Assembly: GCF_964204645.1 (NCBI RefSeq) | Contig: NC_134027.1 | Location: forward strand, 6,188,485 to 6,252,484 | Direction: 5' to 3' | Source: Tubulanus polymorphus | Taxonomy: Eukaryota > Nemertea > Palaeonemertea > Tubulaniformes > Tubulanidae | Length of the DNA: 64,000 nt | Shown here: positions 39,651 through 59,600 of the stretch, piece after piece | How positions within the stretch are numbered: the stretch's first letter is position 1 | Layout: every line of letters starts with the position of its first letter | Made by a program: the position numbers and the translations under genes | Notes under the pieces: model-generated | Database searches by the model: none | Seen by the model: the letters and a program-made list of their open reading frames with translations, nothing else | Told to the model about the DNA's origin: nothing

Positions 39651-40526
39651 TCAGATGATAGATGTCATTGGATATTTTCGTTTAACAGTTGCTCTAGTGC
39701 GTGGTAATTGCACCGGACGCAGGTAAGGATTATCCATCAAATCGGCATCAGCATTTTCAGCGTCAATGAATGATTTACTAGTGTCCGCATCCGAACGCAT
39801 CTCGGAAGCTGCAGCTGCTGTCGATTGTTTTTGCTGCTGCTCTTTTTCATCCCTGTCCGCGGCGGATTCGTCCGTGGAATCGGTTTCGTTCTGATTCTGA
39901 TCCCTTGGTAACAGCGCGTGTAAATACGGTATCGCCAGCGGTTTATTAGCGATCAACGGAAACGAATTATCCTCGTCGAACAGACAATGCGTCTCTCCAG
40001 TTTTCGCGATGAAACGCGTCAATCCTTTTTCGACGTCGCGTTTTTGCGAGGCGATCTTCTCACGAATCACCTGATATTCGTTTAGCGGCTGTTTATGCGT
40101 CGGAGTTTTGATGTAAGTATGCGGATCGGGGAATTCCGGTAAATAATCCGGTATATGCGACGGGTGCGATTTACGTTGACCGGTTTGTAAAATGCGGTGC
40201 TGCCCCGTGTCGGATTTCATTGCCGGTGGCAACAGCATCATTTTATTCGTTCGTTTCGCGTAAGCCGGTAGCGATTCCACAGAAAATCCCATTTCGATTA
40301 AAGACAATACAACATCCCCCAATAATGGCTTAGTTCGACCAGCGTGTTCGCAGAAGTTATGTCCGCTCGTTGCGAGCTGGATCATGAAGCTTTGCATGAT
40401 TTCGACCAATGTTTCACACGCGGCAGGCTCAATTGAATTGAATCCGATTTCGCTGCATAGTGCAGCGACACAACTTTTGAGGACATGACGACGAGATGCT
40501 GCGTAGTTAGCCTCTTTAGACGTCAT
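39651..40526 (-). CDS. TAF8: TFIID subunit 8 (TAF8), intronless
   Basis: Subunit of TFIID that pairs with TAF10 through a histone fold. One uninterrupted 291-codon frame covers the whole protein: histone fold at about residues 8-85 (ALCSEIGFNSIEPAACETL, then LVEIMQSFM), a conserved MGFSVESLPAYAKR block, then FPDPHTYIKTPT, EYQVIREKIASQKRDVEKGL, RFIAKTGETHCLF and AIPYLHALLP, each with a close match in human TAF8. The C-terminal MDNPYLRPVQ, human IDNPYLRPVK, shows the end is intact. A Ser/Gln/Asp-rich low-complexity stretch (about 210-260) separates fold and tail. Length is close to human (310 aa). Human TAF8 has many introns and all other genes in this window are split, so the missing introns are notable. 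Divergent from the membrane-protein gene at 41396. Confidence 0.95.
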   Translation of the reverse strand: MTSKEANYAASRRHVLKSCVAALCSEIGFNSIEPAACETLVEIMQSFMIQLATSGHNFCEHAGRTKPLLGDVVLSLIEMGFSVESLPAYAKRTNKMMLLPPAMKSDTGQHRILQTGQRKSHPSHIPDYLPEFPDPHTYIKTPTHKQPLNEYQVIREKIASQKRDVEKGLTRFIAKTGETHCLFDEDNSFPLIANKPLAIPYLHALLPRDQNQNETDSTDESAADRDEKEQQQKQSTAAAASEMRSDADTSKSFIDAENADADLMDNPYLRPVQLPRTRATVKRKYPMTSII

Positions 40527-41395
40527 TATTTTCGGAAAGTGAGGACTACCACGAGATCTAACACCGACAACAAATGCTATTCGAGATCAACAACAGCCAA
40601 TCATTCGACTTATTTCTGCTAAAATCTGAAACATACCAAACGAGATATAAATAATAATGGTGCCTGAAGAAATCAGACCCGAGGAATTTCGACCTGTAGG
40701 TACTGAATCTTAGACCTGCACTCTGGCAGAAAGTCATTGTTAATGACTGACAATAATAATAAATAAAACGATATTTCAAACTTACGACGAATATTAGTTG
40801 AAAAGAGCCATTATCAAAGACAAATGAATATCATCTCGTCAGTCATAGACATAAATATTCATCATTTTGGGACAACACAACACCAACATACATTTAGTGA
40901 TTTTAGTGCCTATAATTTAGATGGTATATCTAACGAATATATTTTATTTGCCTTTATTCAACAATTCGAGAAAAAGGAAAACGCGGAAGTCGACGCCGAG
41001 CATATTACTCGGAGCCAACCTTTTTACCTTTTTTTCACTATAATGGTGGCGCTAGTGTACGGTGATTTTTGTATATTAGGCTGAGGGCTAAAAGGTAATT
41101 TGATTTATTTTGTCAGTACTTAATCTTTCATGAATATGATTCTTAAGATCGTGGAAAGGTTGTACAGTCGCTCCCTACTTTCTATTCTAGAAGTTGTAGG
41201 TGAATCAATGAGGAGGTGGTGAAATATAAACTTGAGTTGTTGAAAGACTGTTAGAGTTGCGCTAATTACCAAAAGAAACCTGTCCCTTGACTTATCTAAC
41301 ATCTATCTTTTTACAGGTGCTCATAGAGGTGAAATAAGAATACACGTGAATAAAGGGAGATCTTACGAACAAGTCAAAACTGCACATCTAAAGCA
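40527..41395. promoter_or_regulatory. Divergent intergenic region / likely shared promoter area of TAF8 and the 41396 gene
   Basis: The two start codons face away from each other 869 bp apart. A 3' splice site (TTTTTACAG, ending 41316) precedes the downstream ATG, and a matching donor AAAAG|GTAATT lies at 41094/41095, so a 5' UTR exon of the membrane-protein gene probably ends at 41094. Positions of transcription starts are inferred, not seen. Confidence 0.45.
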
Positions 41396-43902: not shown

Positions 43903-43914
43903 CAACATGGCGGC
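43903..43914 (+). promoter_or_regulatory. TISU element at the HCF1 start codon
   Basis: CAACATGGCGGC matches the TISU consensus SAASATGGCGGC at every position, with the ATG being the HCF1 initiator. In mammals TISU couples transcription initiation by YY1 with scanning-free translation from very short 5' UTRs. It supports this ATG as the start and predicts a short leader. Confidence 0.7.
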
Positions 43915-46900
43915 ACCCATCCTGAAGTGGAAGCGGGTTACAAATACCGCTGGGCCGTGTCCTAGGCCTCGGCATGGACATCGGGCGGTGGCAATTAGAG
44001 ATTTGATGGTAGTTTTTGGTGGTGGCAACGAAGGGATAGTCGATGAGTTGCATGTTTTCAATACAGGTAAGAAAATAGTCATTTTTTCTAGCGTTTAAAA
44101 ATCCAAGATGGCGGCTTTGTTGTTAATTGTCGTTGTTTCGGACTGGCGCTCAGAATTGCGCTTTAAATAAAGATGAAAACAGAAAAAAATAGTAAATTTT
44201 GTTAGTCGCCGAATGTTGTTGATCTATCAATGATTTAGCAAGCGTTTTTGATAGGTTCATTGTCTAGCGATCAGTTTTTTTCGTCAACTTTCAAAATTTC
44301 AAAATGGCGGCGCCCATCATCAATCGCCGCCGCGAGCCTGTAACCCGTGTTTTTATTTACATATTGCTGTCATGTTTGGTCGCATTGAACGACATTTAGA
44401 TGTTATCTGATTTTAAATTAACGTGAAACGTGATCGCATTCGAATTAACTTATATTACATGTTTGCTTGTATGCTCTACACCACTGCTCGAAAAAAGGAA
44501 TGAACAATATCTACACATAATTAACATAAATTTTCTCCCACAATCCTCCATCAAATGTAAACAAACCCACGTGCTTCTGTTATGTTTTGTATTCAGTCCG
44601 ATGATTGTTTGTTTTGATAATAGTCAGTAGTTTCGAAACCTGGATATAGAAATAGATGATTTATATAGATGATAATATTTAAATATAGAAAAAGGATATT
44701 TGATCTGTATGTTTTGTCCTGTATTGATGTTAATATTTTATTGCATGTATCTCCTGTAAAACTATTTAAAGCAATCAATGAAATCAAGTTCAAGATAATA
44801 GAAATAGAAATATTTAGAATGATTTAACAAACACAAATAGAACAGAAATTGAAATGATAGATCAGTAGATTCCTGCAATAATTGAATGACAACTAATTAT
44901 TAAGTTTATTAATTTTAGGATATAGTAGTTTTTCGGGTCGTTGCCACCTATTATCTAAATATTTCTATTTCTATTGTCTTGTCATTCGATTATTGTGGGA
45001 TTTTCACAGATATTCTGATCCACTGATTCATCCCACAATATTGTTCAAAGACTTTCAAAGGTCTATTTAAAATGCTAGTTATATTAGAAGGAAGGAGGAT
45101 GGTTGAATTATTTCTAGTATTGTAAGATTTCAACAAGTTTCAACAATTGTGGGATCTTGCATTTAATGAAAATTATAATTTATTTAGCCAGCAATCATTT
45201 TGTATTCATTGATTTGATCGGCATATAAAACTCTGGTCTATCTTATATGAATTATGTCAGCAGCTGAACTTTTTGGAGAGTAATATCCAAATGATTTTCT
45301 GAACTTCTGGCATATCTAATAGAAACATTGAATGGAGTAAGATATAGTTCTATTAATTGCAGCTACTGGTCAGTGGTTTGTCCCAGCTGTCAGAGGAGAT
45401 ATACCTCCTGGTTGTGCAGCGTATGGCTTTGTTTGTGATGGCACGCGAATTTTAGTATTTGGTGGCATGATAGAGTACGGTAAATACTCAAGTGACCTTT
45501 ATGAACTACAAGCTAGTCGTTGGGAATGGAAAAAAGTGAAGGCAAAGCCTCCAAAGAGTCAATCACCACCACCTTGCCCTCGCCTTGGTAGGTAACCGGC
45601 AAGTAATGTTGATATAAATAAGGCCTGCAAGCCTAGAGACCTTCCTCATATTTACAGTACTATTTCATTTATGATTCTTAATAGGACATAGTTTCACACT
45701 ACTGGGACAGAAGTGTTATTTATTTGGCGGTCTGGCCAATGATTCAGAAGATCCAAAAAACAACATACCGAGATATCTAAATGATGTGTACACTCTTGAA
45801 TTGAGACCAAATTCGAGCGTGATGTCATGGGATTTCCCACAGTGTATCGGTACAGCGCCTCCTCCACGAGAATCTCATTCTGCTGCTGCTTACTCGGGCA
45901 AAGATGGGAAGAAATCCCAACTTATCATTTATGGCGGAATGAGTGGATGTCGTCTCGGGGATCTGTGGATATTGGATGGAGGTATGGTTCAATGTTCTCT
46001 GTCTATTTTATGATAAATGAGTATCGCTATCAGCCCTGCAGTGTTAAACTACTATGTCGAATATCTGCCTGTTTTTTCAGAGACATATCAGTGGACTAAA
46101 CCTGTTGTGCAGGGGATCGCACCTCTTCCGCGTAGTTTACATTCAGCGACTGTAATTGGCTGTCGAATGTTCGTGTTCGGTGGTTGGGTTCCGCTGGTTA
46201 TGGATGATGTCAAAGTTGCAACTCATGAAAAAGAATGGAAATGTACCAATACACTAGCATCACTTAATCTCGGTAAGAGTTCTCATTTGGCATAAAGATC
46301 TGCCTGACTTGAACATAATAAACTATACGAAGCTCTCTTTGCATTTGAGAGAGTTATGTTTGTATTCAATCACATTGATATTTTTTCAGAAACAATGACA
46401 TGGGAGCCACTAGCGATGGAAGTATTTGAAGACGCATTGCCCCGTGCTCGTGCTGGACACTGTGCTGTAGCTATTCATTCTCGTTTGTATATATGGAGTG
46501 GTCGAGATGGTTACCGAAAAGCCTGGAATAATCAGGTATTTTTTCTATCAGCCCTTGAATCATTTATTGCATTTGACTAAGTTTTCATTGCAACTCCTCA
46601 TATTGATGTACTAGAGGGAATGGGACAATCTGTTCCTATTGATTTTATAATTTCATCATGTGAAGCCCTTTCTTTTGTGTAGGTTTGTTTCAAAGACTTG
46701 TGGTTTTTGGAGACAGGTAAGCGATTTTAAAACTATATTTCATTGATTTTAAAATTTTTGAGTGAATTTAAGAGATTGGAGAGATTTGTTTCGCATTGAT
46801 GTTCATGTACAGATGAATTGCTTGAAGTTGGAACTATTCAACATTATAGTTTATTTGATTTCAGAGAAGCCTCCACCTCCATCAAAGGTACAACTGGTAC

Positions 46901-49900
46901 GAGCGAGCACCACAACGTTAGAAGTAACCTGGGGTGCTGTGCCAACAGCCGATGCTTACTTACTACAACTTCAAAAATATGACATGCCACCTTCACAGGC
47001 GGCTACACCTCCTGGTATACCACAAAATGCTGGTAATCCGCTCGCGAAGGCAAACCTTCACCCAACAACCCCGACATCTGCTACTATCAGATTACCAGGT
47101 TCGTAAATAAAACCCATTCTTTAAAATATTTAATTGGATTTTTACACAATTTTTCAATTAAAATATTATTAAGGTACCTACCTATTGACGTTATTATTTG
47201 GTGATTGATTTAGGTGTGGCTGGTGTGCGACCCTCCTCGACACTTGCACAACTTGCTGGAACTCCACCTCATTCGATACGTGCACCACGAAAATCACCCA
47301 TTACAGTTACGCCATCTACAGGCACTGCGGTGAAAGTACTCAGCGCATCGCAGAGTGGTGGATCGCAACTGATCAGTCTTGCGAAACCAATCTCATTTGG
47401 TTCAGGAACACCGGTGAGCCTAGATATCATTCACTTACTTGTGTAGTATTCCTATTAGCGATGATATTCAGAATGATGTATTTCTGCAAGTCACGACGTT
47501 GAACTATAATTTCAGTCATCTGGAAGTGGAATGAGTGGAATAGCAGCACTTGCTGCAGCGGCAGCGGCTACGCAGAAAATTACAACTAACGCCAGCACAA
47601 CTCCAACATCTACTTTAACGAGTCTGTCAAGCGGTATTAAAGTCGTCACGCCTACGATTGTTACACCATCCGGTATCAAAGTAGCACCGGTGCAAGGTTC
47701 GCAGACCGGACAAGCTGTCCGCTTGAACACACCAGGCGCGACAATTCTGAAAGCGCATCCTTCCGGGCAAGGCAAACAGATCATAACCGTACATAAGACT
47801 GGAGCGGTAACGTCTCAGCCTCAGATTGTAACTCTCGTAAAGACGACACAGGGAATGACTGTAGCTACAGTGAGTCATCAAACTATTTGCATGATTATGA
47901 TTGAGATTAACCAATGGTACAAATTGGATTCGTCATAGCACCTTTGAAATTGTTATTTTTCAGACAAAGTCTGGCATTCCCCAGGGCGCTACAATTGTCA
48001 AACTGGTTACATCGCAAGCCGGAGCTAAACCCACAGCGATTTTATCTAATCAGGGAGGTGGTTCAACACCATCTACTATTCTAGGCATCAGTAGTGTTCA
48101 GCCTCATATAAAGGTACAAAAAGTATGAAAGTATGAAACATTGGTTTTTGTCGGATTCTTTGTTTGCGTTATATGCATCTGTTGTTGAATTCTTGGGATT
48201 TTTACAGAATACGCAAGCTGGAAAAGCAATGATTAAAACTATCCCGACATCAATGATCGCAATGGCTAAAGCTGGCCTCGCGTCGGGAACTACAACGACT
48301 GCTAATATCGGCGGTAAACAGACGATTGTCATCGCTGCGCCAAAAGGATCGACTGGTCACGGAATCACTCCGGCGAAGATTATTACGACAATGCCTAAAC
48401 TCGGCGGTTCATCAACTGGACAAACTCAGTTCATCGTCGTCAATACGCAGGCTGGTGGAACTCCCGGTGGTGTTACTGTTAAAACTGTTTCCGCTTCATG
48501 TAAGAACTGACGCATAACTCATATAAATATATATAGTCATGAAGTGGCTTGTGTATTTTGGCATTATCATGCATATGTTCTCTTTTTAGCATTAGCTGGT
48601 ACATCATTATCTGGAGCTGGTACTGCTGGGACATTAAGTCAGCTAGTCGGATCACAAACTGGAACTAAACCAGTTGTAAGCATTATATCTGGAAATGGAA
48701 AAGGTCAAAGTAAGTTAAAGTAACCGTTCAATCTTTTTTCTTTGAGCTATTTTCTTCATTCACGATTTTATATATGAAATGTGTTTTTTCTATTTTCAGT
48801 CGGTCAGAAGACTGTTATGATAACAAAACCACTGTCATCGTTAGTTAGTACAGCTTCATCTCCGAATATTGTCACTGTTAGTCAACCGACTATTACTCCC
48901 ATTGTAGTGTCTACAACTGCATTGCCTACGGCTCTGACACAAAGGGCTGATGTGCTGGCTGCTGCGACTAAAGTTACTCCGGCTGTAACATCCGTCATTT
49001 CAGCAACACAAGCACAGCCGCTTGTGTCTGGTGAGTGCTCTGATGGCATCCATTGTGGGGAAGAAAAGGCCGAGTGTACTGATGGCATTCATTGTGGGGA
49101 AGAAAAGGGTGAATGTACTGATGGCATTCATTGTGGGGAAGAGAAGACTGAGTGCACTGATGGCATCCATTGTGGTGAAGAAAAAGAGTGCACTGATGGA
49201 AAACATTGTGGGGAAGATAAACAAGAATGTACTGATGGAAAGCATTGTGGGGAAGAGAAGGCTGAGTGCACGGATGGCATTCATTGTGGTGAAGAAAAAG
49301 AATGCACTGATGGAAAGCATTGTGGGGAAGACAAAAAAGAATGCACTGATGGTAAGCATTGCGGGGAAGAGAAGGCCGAGTGCACTGATGGCATTCATTG
49401 TGGTGAAGAAAAAGAATGCACTGATGGAAAGCATTGTGGTGAAGACAAACAAGAATGCACTGATGGAAAGCATTGTGGGGAAGAGAAGAATAATTGTACA
49501 GATGGGAAACATTGTGGTGAGGGCAAAGATTGCACCGATGGCCTCCATTGTGGTGAGGAAAAGGAATGCACTGATGGTGTTCATTGTGGTGAAGAAGATA
49601 AAAAAGAATGCACCGATGGAAAACATTGTGGTGAAGGAGAAGAAACATCTGCTGAAAAATCTGCTGGCGAAAATAATGAAGGAAAAGATGAAAAAGAAAA
49701 TAAACAGGCAGACACTGGTGTTTCAGTGGAGAAGCCTGATGAATCTCAAACAGTAAACCCTGATGCAGCTGTGGCCAGCACTTCAAAAATGGATGAATCT
49801 CAGACGAAGTTGGATGAACCGGAAGCAATGGACACGTCCGCCGTATTCGATGTGAATGCTGAATCAGCTGAAATGAAACTAGCAGAACCTACTGTTGAGC

Positions 49901-51492
49901 CTAAAGAAGAGCCAAAAGAGGAAGCAATGGATACTTCATTAACAACAGCTTCTTCTTCTGAGGCTTCTGGTATGTAGAAGAATGTTCGAGGACTATCACC
50001 TGTGGGGCAAATGCCTTGTGTGTGTTTTGCGGAATTGGTATATTCCATTAAACAGCTTTTATATCCTCATTTTTAGATCCTCTTTCGACCCTAGCAACAG
50101 CTGCAGCAGCTGCCACTAATATGACTACAACTATGAATATTCCAATAATGTCAGAGAATAAATTTAAGTCAGAGAATGGAATAAAAACGGTAAGCATCTT
50201 ATGAGGCCAGTTCTAGACATAGCTGGTCGTGGACCACATTATGGTTCTTAAATACTGTATATTATTTCGATAGCTGACAAATTTGAATGATTCGAATTTA
50301 AGGTGTATCTAAGCAAACCTTTGTATGTTTTTCAGGAAATCAAGCCTGAAGGGGAGTCACCAGCTAAGATGGTAACTGTCAAGAAGGAAACTGGTAATCA
50401 GTGGTATGATGTCGGTATTATTAAGGGAACCTCATGTATTGTCTCGCAGTATCATCTTCCATCAGAAGCCAGCCAGGGAAATGGAGATGTAAGTTGCATT
50501 AGGAGTGAAGTATTCGCTGAATCACTTTACTGGTAAATTTCTATTTGTTTTCCATATTTATTTGTTTTAGGATATCGATGTGGTCAGTGTACCAGACCAC
50601 AACATATTGAAACGCCAAGAACTGCTTCCGGGAACAGCCTATAAGTTTAGAGTTGCAGGAATTAATGCTTGTGGTCGTGGCGCCTTCAGTGAGGTGTCTG
50701 CCTTTAAGACTTGCCTTCCAGGATTCCCTGGAGCTCCATCTGCTATCAAAATTAGCAAGGTATGTATGGTTCTGTGATAAATTTGTGCGTAAAATTACTC
50801 GGTAATTCAAAAAGTTTCATTTTGATCTGTTGTTTTAGAGTCCTGAAGGTGCCTGTCTGTCTTGGGAACCACCACAGAACACAGCTGGTCGTATAACAGA
50901 GTATTCAGTGTATCTGGCTGTTCGAAACTCTGCAGCAGTTGAACAAATGCCAGGAACACCGGCACAGCTGGCATTTGTACGTGTTTATTGTGGACCGAGT
51001 CCCTCTTGTATTGTCAGTAATAGCAGTTTGGCTTCAGCTCACTTGGATTATACAACTAAACCAGCCATAATATTCCGTATTGCCGCCCGGAATGAGAAAG
51101 GCTATGGTCCTGCTACACAAGTCAGGTGGTTGCAAGGTAAGAAAACTTTTTTGGGCTTTCTATCAAAAGACAAAATTGAAAATATTCTTACTTATAATTC
51201 TAAAATTCATTAAATATAATTCTTTAAATTTGGCCTTATTTGTAATTCATTGTAGATGCTGCAAGTCCAGCTGCTAAAGTTGCCATAAAAAGACCTATAA
51301 ATGCCGATGGGTAAGGAATTATTCACTGCCATCAGTTCAATAGTTCTATTTACTTCTCATTGATGTTGTCTGTGAACATCATATACAAATAGAACTAGAA
51401 ATAAATTGAGGAATATAATTTGTTTTAGAAAACCAGTGCTGGTTGGAAGTCCATCAATTGCAAAGAGAATCAAACCTGATGAAGATTCATGA
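43907..51492 (+). CDS. HCFC1: Host cell factor 1 (HCF-1), 1,481 aa, with a novel central repeat array
   Basis: Chromatin-associated transcriptional coregulator. Exons: 43907-44066, 45363-45587, 45685-45981, 46081-46272, 46390-46535, 46683-46716, 46865-47098, 47214-47413, 47516-47869, 47964-48113, 48208-48499, 48590-48709, 48800-49969, 50077-50189, 50336-50488, 50571-50759, 50839-51136, 51256-51310, 51429-51492; phases all agree. The N-terminal Kelch propeller (about 1-345) includes [28 protein letters not shown]-like and [20 protein letters not shown] strings nearly identical to vertebrate HCF-1. Next is the self-association/Fn3 segment ([14 protein letters not shown], about 352 on), then a Thr/Gly/Ala-rich basic region with [13 protein letters not shown]. 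Residues 880-1083 are 16 tandem ECTDGxHCGEEK units, then an acidic stretch with two EAMDTS motifs. The C-terminus has the Fn3 pair ([37 protein letters not shown]) and a basic tail. Vertebrate HCF-PRO repeats are absent. Exon 7 uses a GTTCGT donor, the only one that keeps phase. Confidence 0.96.
49033..49644 (+). repeat. Tandem array of 16 coding units, 36-42 bp each (HCF1 exon 13)
   Basis: Each unit encodes E-C-(T/S)-D-G-(I/K/V/L)-H-C-G-E-(E/D/G)-K with 0-2 extra residues. Units 5-7, 8-10 and 11-13 repeat as a triplet ([21 protein letters not shown]), about 114 bp, with the last triplet diverged. DNA is also highly similar between units (TGCACTGATGG, CATTGTGGGGAAGA). All indels are multiples of three, so coding is maintained. 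Large open frames in the other frames and strand across this array are by-products. Confidence 0.97.
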
Positions 51493-56665: not shown

Positions 56666-59600
56666 ACTTGTCTGAAATGCTCGCGTCGTAGCAGAACGTG
56701 CGAATTGTGTATAATACTAAACATTGGAAAAGTGAAATATGGAAAATCAGTGTTACGCTCCATCTACGAATATAAGCCGTGCGCCGTCTTCGAGTTCGCT
56801 GCATCAGCGAGTATTAGTTCACAGACCGGTCTATAATCAACCGAAATTTGACGAAGGATACGAAATCACGATATGGCAAGAGAAAACATTTCGAGAAAGA
56901 CTTTCGAGCGCTCGTAATAAATTGACCTGCTCGAAAGATGCGCTACGACGATTCTTCTTGCTACGTTTTCCATTTATCGGAATCTTAAAGAAGTATTCCA
57001 AAGACTTTATTGCCGGCGACATTATAGCCGGAATAACTGTAGCTATCATGCATATACCACAAGGTAGGTAGACCAATGTTTTGTGAAGGTAAAAAATCAA
57101 TCAAAACATGATCAAGAACATGTATTTATGTTTATCATACTACAGTCCTATATACAGGGTGGTACCAAAAATGCCACCTCATACTTCTCTTCTACTTATT
57201 AGAATCCTTCAATATTCATATAGATCGATAGCAAATTATGAGTCAGTTGGAACACTCTGGGCTAGAGTAAAGATGGCAAAGCCTCAGTACTCCATCAGTA
57301 CTGAAATTTATTGTGATGATATCCTTTCCTTGTATCTAATAGTGACAGGGTAGTGATAAATGAAAAGAAGTATACCTAGAGCAAAATCATGTCAACAGGT
57401 TGTTGAGGCTTGATTTTTTAAAGCCATTTGATATAAGGATTCAAAATATAAAAGAGTGGAATAAATAGTGTGAATGTGTAGGCTACAAATTGATGAACAT
57501 TATTAACTTAAAATTCAGAAGTTTTTGCACCGGTATTTTTCTTTCATTTAGGAATGGCGTATTCATTGTTGGCTTCATTACCTCCAGTGTATGGTTTATA
57601 TGTATCGTTCTTTCCTGTGATATTTTACTTCTTCTTCGGTACATCTAGGCATATTTCAATTGGTAAGTTTGTCAGTTTATCTGTTTATTCAACTGTGAAA
57701 ATGTTTTCAGATTTAATGGGGATGAAGTAAGGAAAATAGGTTGTTTTAATGTATAGTAATATGATGTGTGTTTTCAGGTACATTTGCTGTAGTATGTTTG
57801 ATGATTGGTAGTTCAGTTGATCGGTTAACTCATGACTTTCAGCCTCCTCTATTCAACTCCACAAATAGTGATGACAATGTTACAGATATTGCGAGAAAAG
57901 CTGAATATGAACAGTTACTTATCGAAGAAAAAGCATCAATCGCGATGCAGCTTTCCTTGATAACAGGATGTGTCCAGGTAACTTGAAGTTCTTACCATAC
58001 TCGATTATTTGAATTCATTTACTTGAGCTATTTTAGGTTTGATCTGATATAAATGTAATACTTTCAAAATCTTTTTCAGTTAGCAATGGGTTTCTTGCAG
58101 TTGGGATTTCTCACTATTTATCTATCAGATCCATTAGTTAGTGGTTTCACAACAGGAGCTGCAATGCATGTATTTACAAGTCAAGTGTCACATATCTTTG
58201 GAATCAAAGTTGAGAAATACAGTGGAGCTTTACGCTTGATATATGTAAGCACATTTCAGAATTCCATTTCCTATCTCAGTTCTTACCGTAATACCTATTC
58301 TGTTGGGTTTGTCTTTGGCTATTGTGTTCACTTTTCATTCAACTGGCCATGGTGTCCCTGGACCCCATAGTTACTGTAAAAACTTGAATTGTTCATTTGC
58401 TATTTTCAGACATATATTGATTTATTTGCTAAGATATTGGAGACAAATCTTGCGGCGTTAGTCATGTCGTGTGTGTGTATAATTATTCTCATCCTCGTTA
58501 AACAATGCATCAATGCACGTTTCCAAAATAAGATGAAAATGCCTGTTCCAGCTGAGATTATTGTGGTGAGTTTTAACAGCATTGAAAGGAGACTCATTCT
58601 TTATACTTTTTCATTGATAAACAATGAATGCTATACACAGCTAAAATCATAATCAATTATGTTTGTTTGTGATGTTGATTTTGATATTTAGGTTGTTGTG
58701 GCGACGATCATTTCACATTTTGCAAAATTCGAAGCAACATATGAAATGGATGTCGTAGGAGATATACCAACTGGGTTAGTTGACATTTTTTAAGCAATTC
58801 GCCGTAATGCAGTCTCTGTTCCTCAGCATTAATCCATATTGTCGATGATTTTTCAGGATTCCTGTACCTCGGATACCCAAATCAAACTATATAAAGAATG
58901 TGTGGATCGATGCAGCGATTATAGCGATTGTTTCATACGCCGTTTCAATGTCAATGTCAAAAATATTTGCGGCCAAGCACGGATATGAAGTAGATTCTAA
59001 TCAGGTGGGTACAACTAAACTGTCCTTTAGAAATTCTGGCATTTACTTCATTTGTGTGAATATATCAATTGATTATATTTGAAACTATTTCGATATCTAT
59101 ACAGGAATTACTCGCTCACGGAGGTGTGAATATTCTTGGCAGTTTATTCAACTGTTTTGTATCATCTGCTTCACTGTCGCGGAGTCTCATTCAAGATTCG
59201 ATGGGTGGCAAAACTCAGATCGCTGGCATCGTTTCATCCGGTTTAATGATCATCGTTTTATTACTCATCGGGCCGCTGTTCTATTCTCTACCAAATGTAA
59301 GAACGATACCCTTTACATTTAATACAGGCCTTCTCACGGTTTTAAACCTGATTGCATCAAAGCTACGATAGGAAAACCCTGTGAATTCACATCTATCGTC
59401 ATCAAATTTTTTCCAGTGTGTCCTAGCAGCAATCATTATCGTGAATCTGAAAGGAATGTTTTTACAGTTCAATCAACTTAAACGACTGTGGCGAATATCG
59501 AAATTCGATTTTGTAAGTGCTCAAATCTGTCTGTCAATACTTTTTGAAACTGGTTATCACATTTTGAAACTTTCATTTTTAGGCCATTTGGATTGTCTCA

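Follow-up and report, generated by a model that had tools for sequence, protein, structure and literature searches.

The HCF locus

The window, by which the whole analysed stretch of 64,000 nucleotides from Tubulanus polymorphus is meant, contains a gene that is clearly identifiable as HCF from its predicted domains (Table 1). The HCF-type Kelch domain scored well over the cut-off of 113 for its profile, and the C-terminal Fn3 self-association segment was matched to that of human HCF-1 over query residues 16-230 of 252. The splice sites of the gene model were picked by hand and all 18 introns run from GT to AG; the exon ends are inferred, and exon 10 may have an alternative end. No second HCF gene was found in the assembly using the Kelch_HCF profile: it matched eight stretches, five of them in this gene (four marked as over the cut-off), with the three located elsewhere all scoring below it. 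Two neighbouring open frames, examined by eye, are taken by us to be TAF8-like (39651-40586, minus strand) and SLC26-type anion transporter-like (about 56700-57990, plus strand).

Table 1. Features of the HCF gene in the window of T. polymorphus DNA
Feature	Position	Strand	Description and basis
HCF gene	43907..51492	+	19 coding exons, 1481 aa; hand-made model
HCF exons 1-6, Kelch domain (residues 7-350)	43907..46716	+	Pfam PF13854 Kelch_HCF, 644.9 bits
HCF exons 7-12 and start of exon 13	46865..49032	+	Ser/Thr-rich basic region without Cys, after a probable N-terminal half-Fn3
HCF exon 13	48800..49969	+	1170 nt, phase 1 to phase 1; whole array and acidic region
16-unit array, consensus ECTDGxHCGEEK, residues 880-1083	49033..49644	+	in exon 13, within a 399-codon open stretch
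Array units 4-12	49150..49491	+	38-residue triad (12+13+13) present in three copies; unit alignment
HCF acidic region, no Cys	49645..49969	+	charge and Cys counts
HCF exons 15-18, C-terminal Fn3 segment	50336..51310	+	PDB 4go6 chain B, E 5.4e-97

The N-terminal half-Fn3 is presumed from its position and from the usual layout of HCF proteins. Residues 401-879 of the predicted protein are basic and Ser/Thr-rich (K+R 34, D+E 1), while residues 1084-1191 are acidic (K+R 10, D+E 28), and Cys is absent from residues 343-880 and 1079-1262. A C-terminal KR...KRIKP, recognised by eye, is a suitable-looking candidate nuclear localisation signal.

Exon 13 begins and ends in phase 1, so it could be skipped in frame. 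Two donor-like sites were also identified within it, one after 49030 at the start of the array (CTG/GTGAGT, score 8.2) and one after 49351 in array unit 9 (ATG/GTAAGC, score 8.9). The 18 modelled donors of the gene score 5.5-12.1 (3.0-11.5 on leave-one-out), and a score of at least 8.2 is reached by 40 of the 3702 GT dinucleotides on the plus strand of the window. Both sites are in frame with exon 14, so isoforms with a shortened array or none would be possible.

A tandem array in exon 13

The sequence-only reading of this DNA had described 16 tandem units at residues 880-1083, encoded in exon 13 and lying between a basic and an acidic region of HCF. The hand-made gene model confirms the units and their location, and the charge counts given above place the array between the basic and the acidic part. 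Its first codon, at position 49033, encodes the Glu that opens unit 1. Tandem Repeats Finder reported the array in three overlapping rows (49036-49636, period 39; 49032-49644, period 114; 49033-49636, period 153), the 114-bp period being that of the 38-residue triad formed by units 4-12. The triad copies differ from one another at 8-10 positions per 114 nt.

The core C[TS]DGxHCG is present in all 16 units, which are spaced 12-14 residues apart. Unit positions 2, 4, 5, 7, 8, 9 and 10 (C, D, G, H, C, G and E) are invariant, so that all 32 Cys and all 16 His of the array are kept, and position 3 is Thr in fifteen units and Ser in one. Variation is found at position 1 (Glu 14, Asp 1, Asn 1), position 6, the x of the consensus (Lys 8, Ile 6, Leu 1, Val 1), and position 11 (Glu 11, Asp 3, Gly 2). 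The array is strongly acidic (K+R 25, D+E 64; net charge -39), with a Ser plus Thr fraction of 0.08. Its Cys residues are separated by spacings of 5, 6 or 7 only, with no CxxC and no CxC. From the open frame, the splice sites and the codon pattern, we infer that the array is encoded as protein.

Apparent constraint on the repeat unit

The pattern TGYNNNGAYGGNNNNCAYTGYGGNGAR, a DNA rendering of C-x-DG-x-HCGE, was searched across the assembly of 267,791,593 bases, with masked stretches and gaps read as N. It has 16 matches, all in the array, and its reversed control has none in the same number of bases. When the x codon is set aside, the units show 48 base differences from their consensus, distributed over codon positions 1, 2 and 3 as 2, 2 and 44. 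The confinement of the pattern to the array, the empty control and this third-position bias together argue that the array is not a product of chance.

The differences outside the x codon lead to eight amino-acid changes, compared with 33.1 +/- 2.9 under random placement (5000 runs, lowest 22). With each distinct variant counted once, allowing for the shared descent of the units, 12 of 16 possible silent variants and 6 of 69 possible replacement variants occur (Fisher p 1.9e-7). In the HCF frame the units have a pN/pS of 0.138, which falls to 0.073 when the x codon is left out; the overall pS is 0.60. The values for the five other frames are 2.7, 2.6, 8.9, 0.29 and 2.7: replacement constraint is absent in four of them, and the value of 0.29 belongs to the reverse frame that shares its third positions with the HCF frame. 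Long open frames overlap the array at 48989-49756 (plus strand, another frame), 48995-49888 (minus strand) and 49000-49722 (minus strand).

Silent variation is nil at the Asp (GAT) and His (CAT) codons of unit positions 4 and 7 in all 16 units; in the rest of the HCF gene GAT and GAC occur 33 and 7 times, and CAT and CAC 13 and 5 times. Recent common descent would thus account for part of the sameness of the units, and since the units are duplicates of one another, the number of independent events is small. Taken with the codon statistics, the protein motif of the array appears to be kept by selection.

Searches for relatives of the array

No Pfam or NCBIfam profile matched the array at an E-value of 1 or below. 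A phmmer search of the PDB sequences at E up to 10 returned no HCF-1 peptide and only the Tenebrio antifreeze protein 1ezg; a control query did find the HCF-1PRO peptides in this sequence set. AlphaFold2 predicted no fold (mean pLDDT 41.4 for the array alone and 38.2 when its own windows served as the alignment), a result that says little for a metal-bound orphan repeat.

Searching the assembly with tblastn gave 46 matches to the array, 45 of them outside it. Fifteen of these 45 outside matches (in L002, L003, L011-L015) were inspected: all fifteen lie in short-period tandem repeats, and no coding relative was recognised among them. Three to six of the six frames are open over the middle of each, as in non-coding minisatellites; 12 of the 15 have no internal stop, so stops do not rule out coding. 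The HCF array is set apart from these minisatellites by its third-position pattern and by its place in a modelled exon. Translations of the minisatellites include the Cys-containing VLCTDGVLCPDG, FRHCGEF, CVEGERCTEGE and TYWLKCGNHE, and some of them are open across hundreds of codons in several frames.

The peptide pattern of the unit matched 12 stretches in prokaryotic contigs and three in viral contigs, none of which was confirmed, and the degenerate DNA pattern had three single viral matches of one motif each, with no array. The Kelch exon of HCF likewise matched three viral stretches with none confirmed. PHROG 12226 (unknown function) gave an E-value of 0.00028 for the whole protein with no single stretch passing, which is read as probably an effect of composition. 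A text search of the literature available did not find CTDGKHC, CTDGIHC or ECTDGKH, and among the literature matches listed there was no report of repeats in invertebrate HCF. The array would seem to be a lineage-specific repeat in the HCF linker, built from a unit that is unmatched in Pfam or NCBIfam.

Comparison with known HCF cleavage sites

The same interval of HCF holds the HCF-1PRO repeats in vertebrates and a Taspase1 site in the fly (PMC4840301 and PMC6582346, in the text available), as the sequence-only reading had proposed. In the available text of PMC4840301 and PMC4549301, HCF-1PRO repeats are reported from vertebrate HCF-1 only. Each is 20-26 residues long and combines a cleavage region containing PPCE with a THE linker and a region rich in Thr (PMC6240873, in the part available). 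Like them, the array consists of tandem units between the Basic and Acidic regions, contained in one large exon and without relatives found elsewhere in its own genome (compare the available text of PMC4840301). It differs in unit length (12-14 residues) and in unit count (16, while human HCF-1 has six HCF-1PRO repeats), and it has none of the PPCE-THE-TGTTNTATTAT parts described in the available portion of PMC6240873.

Neither PPCE nor CE[TS], which would mark the cleavage region, and neither THETG nor TGTTN, which would mark the Thr-rich region bound by OGT, occurs in the modelled HCF protein. The earlier statement that an HCF-PRO-like Thr-rich tail is missing therefore holds. The loose echo of CxxxxCE that had been suggested alongside it does not, as the Cys spacings are 5, 6 or 7, the second Cys is followed by Gly in all 16 units and there is no Thr-rich tail. 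Judged on these motifs, the array is not an HCF-1PRO repeat. An OGT gene was identified at a single place on contig C5, covering profile positions 1-516 of 543 except 281-285. Two partial OGT-like stretches (G000:C5:8647956-8648374 and G000:C5:8661270-8661688) lie about 42 and 55 kb from this main locus; their scores are near-equal and they are perhaps recent duplicates.

The Taspase1 consensus has been described as Q3 [I,L,V]2 D1 / G1' V2' D3' D4', for which similar residues fail to rescue and Asp is required at at least one of two interdependent residues, taken here as 3' and 4' (PMC3102056, in the text available). In this numbering the units read C3 T2 (S2 once) D1 G1' [IKLV]2' H3' C4'. The D1-G1' pair is present in all 16, an Asp-Gly in each unit in the same interval as the Taspase1 site of Drosophila HCF. 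They differ from the consensus of PMC3102056, as far as its available text gives it, in that they lack Gln at P3, any aliphatic residue at P2 and Asp at either P3' or P4', where His and Cys stand in every unit. Nor does Q[FILMV]DG occur anywhere in the modelled HCF, in agreement with the claim that no Taspase1-like site was to be seen.

A Taspase1 gene is present, with the reading of one exon best matching threonine aspartase 1 (E 2.1e-21) and further exon-like pieces recognised by eye. At the TFIIA locus, an open frame (L019, base 8542, G000:C1) that lies between exons matched by Pfam contains ILQLDGAHDSSSDDDDD, which is taken as the putative TFIIA cleavage site, the exon itself being without a Pfam match. 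This frame reads ILQLDGAHD and then an acidic run, thus giving Q3, L2, D1, G1' and D4' with His at 3'. The units share with it the D-G pair and the His at 3' and fail at 3, 2 and 4'. The His at 3' in the TFIIA site weakens one argument against cleavage of the array. The genes for both OGT and Taspase1 therefore exist in this genome, and the modelled HCF has a canonical site for neither.

Interpretation of the array

Our tentative preference is for the array as a lineage-specific, acidic metal-binding linker between the two halves of HCF. A unit of 12-13 residues would have expanded in tandem inside exon 13, between the Basic and Acidic regions. Relatives of HCF are nuclear, and HCF is expected in the reducing environment of the nucleus. 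With 32 Cys, 16 His and 64 acidic residues in such a protein, binding of metal, probably zinc, would be the likeliest role, with Cys, His and possibly also Asp of each unit or neighbouring pair as the ligands. Acidic and organised by metal, the array would then serve as a linker or docking surface, holding the halves together or recruiting partners, and it may respond to metal or redox state. The residues that are invariant are Gly, which permits tight turns, and the potential metal binders Cys, His, Asp and Glu, while the charged positions 1 and 11 drift, which argues against a mere spacer and for metal or thiol chemistry; the nuclear location of HCF would make metal the likelier of these two. 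The invariance of Cys and His, the 2/2/44 codon bias, the Cys-free flanks and the finding of no second HCF gene speak for a metal-binding linker. The spacing of 5-7, the lack of a Pfam or NCBIfam match, the absence of an AlphaFold2 fold and the invariant GAT and CAT codons speak against it, and Cys spacings of 5, 6 or 7 are not known to us from zinc fingers.

The array could also be a spacer that only extends the acidic region, its motif being uniform as a side effect of duplication and gene conversion in the recent past. The net charge and the adjoining acidic region are consistent with this, as are the recent duplication recorded in the 114-bp triads, the Asp and His codons without silent variation and the in-frame skippable exon 13. 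Homogenisation should, however, erase silent differences too, yet pS is 0.60 while Cys and His are invariant, and we regard a simple spacer as somewhat unlikely. Cleavage within the units to give N and C subunits, whether by OGT, by a Taspase1 of shifted specificity or by some other protease, with the array as a functional counterpart of HCF-1PRO, is less probable again and in our view clearly unlikely. It would suit the position of the array in the interval of the known cleavage sites and the presence of both enzyme genes, and the only Asp-Gly pairs between HCF residues 400 and 1231 are the 16 of the array, one per unit. Asp-Gly is the P1-P1' pair of Taspase1, and with the pairs so distributed the array could conceivably have grown out of an old Taspase1 site. 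The QLDGAHD of the genome's own TFIIA site is similar to the units in its D-G and its His at 3', and this HCF keeps the C-terminal Fn3 segment, through which the cut halves of human HCF-1 stay together (PMC6582346, in the text available). Against cleavage, the units depart from the Taspase1 consensus, as the available text of PMC3102056 gives it, at all but D1 and G1', they fail the TFIIA site at three positions, and PPCE, THETG and TGTTN are absent from the modelled protein.

A solenoid stapled by disulfides or switched by redox state, in which each unit's two Cys would bond to one another in the manner of the beetle antifreeze protein, is very improbable. This protein (1ezg) was the only PDB sequence retrieved; its repeat TCTxSxNCxxAx with C2-C8 bonds (PMC8038014, in the text available) has a 12-residue period and agrees with the unit at C2, T3 and C8, and at position 5 the unit has the small Gly. 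The match itself (E 0.076) is not significant, its bias of 28.8 exceeding its score of 15.7, and homology to the antifreeze protein is rejected. The units depart from the antifreeze repeat at positions 1, 5, 7 and 11, the Thr at 1 being replaced by Glu and the core-facing Ala at 11 by Glu, Asp or Gly; they also alternate between 12 and 13 residues and lie inside HCF. The reducing nucleus in which HCF is expected also argues against such bonds. Quite improbable, too, is a metal-gated module, a second and independently acquired processing or regulatory array at the HCF junction in which metal on the Cys/His units would decide whether the halves are cut or held.

Origin of repeats in the HCF linker

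Kapuria and colleagues noted three marks of HCF-1PRO repeats: they are restricted to vertebrates, they are absent elsewhere even in degenerate form and they generally lie in one large exon (PMC4840301, in the text available). The origin of these repeats is described there as unexplained, and a sudden arrival, perhaps from a viral source, was proposed from the three marks (same text). The array described here shows the second mark as far as its own genome is concerned (15 of 45 weak outside matches inspected), as well as the third, and its 114-bp triads are traces of local stepwise duplication. Since the second and third marks are seen here in an unrelated array at this position of HCF, they need not mean an outside origin.

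The interest of the array lies in its place in HCF and in the constraint on its sequence, with its function a candidate one. By the modelled protein, this gene is a case of an HCF without either known cleavage site. Were the array indeed a second, metal-gated one, repeat arrays could arise at the HCF junction by local expansion, with no viral donor.
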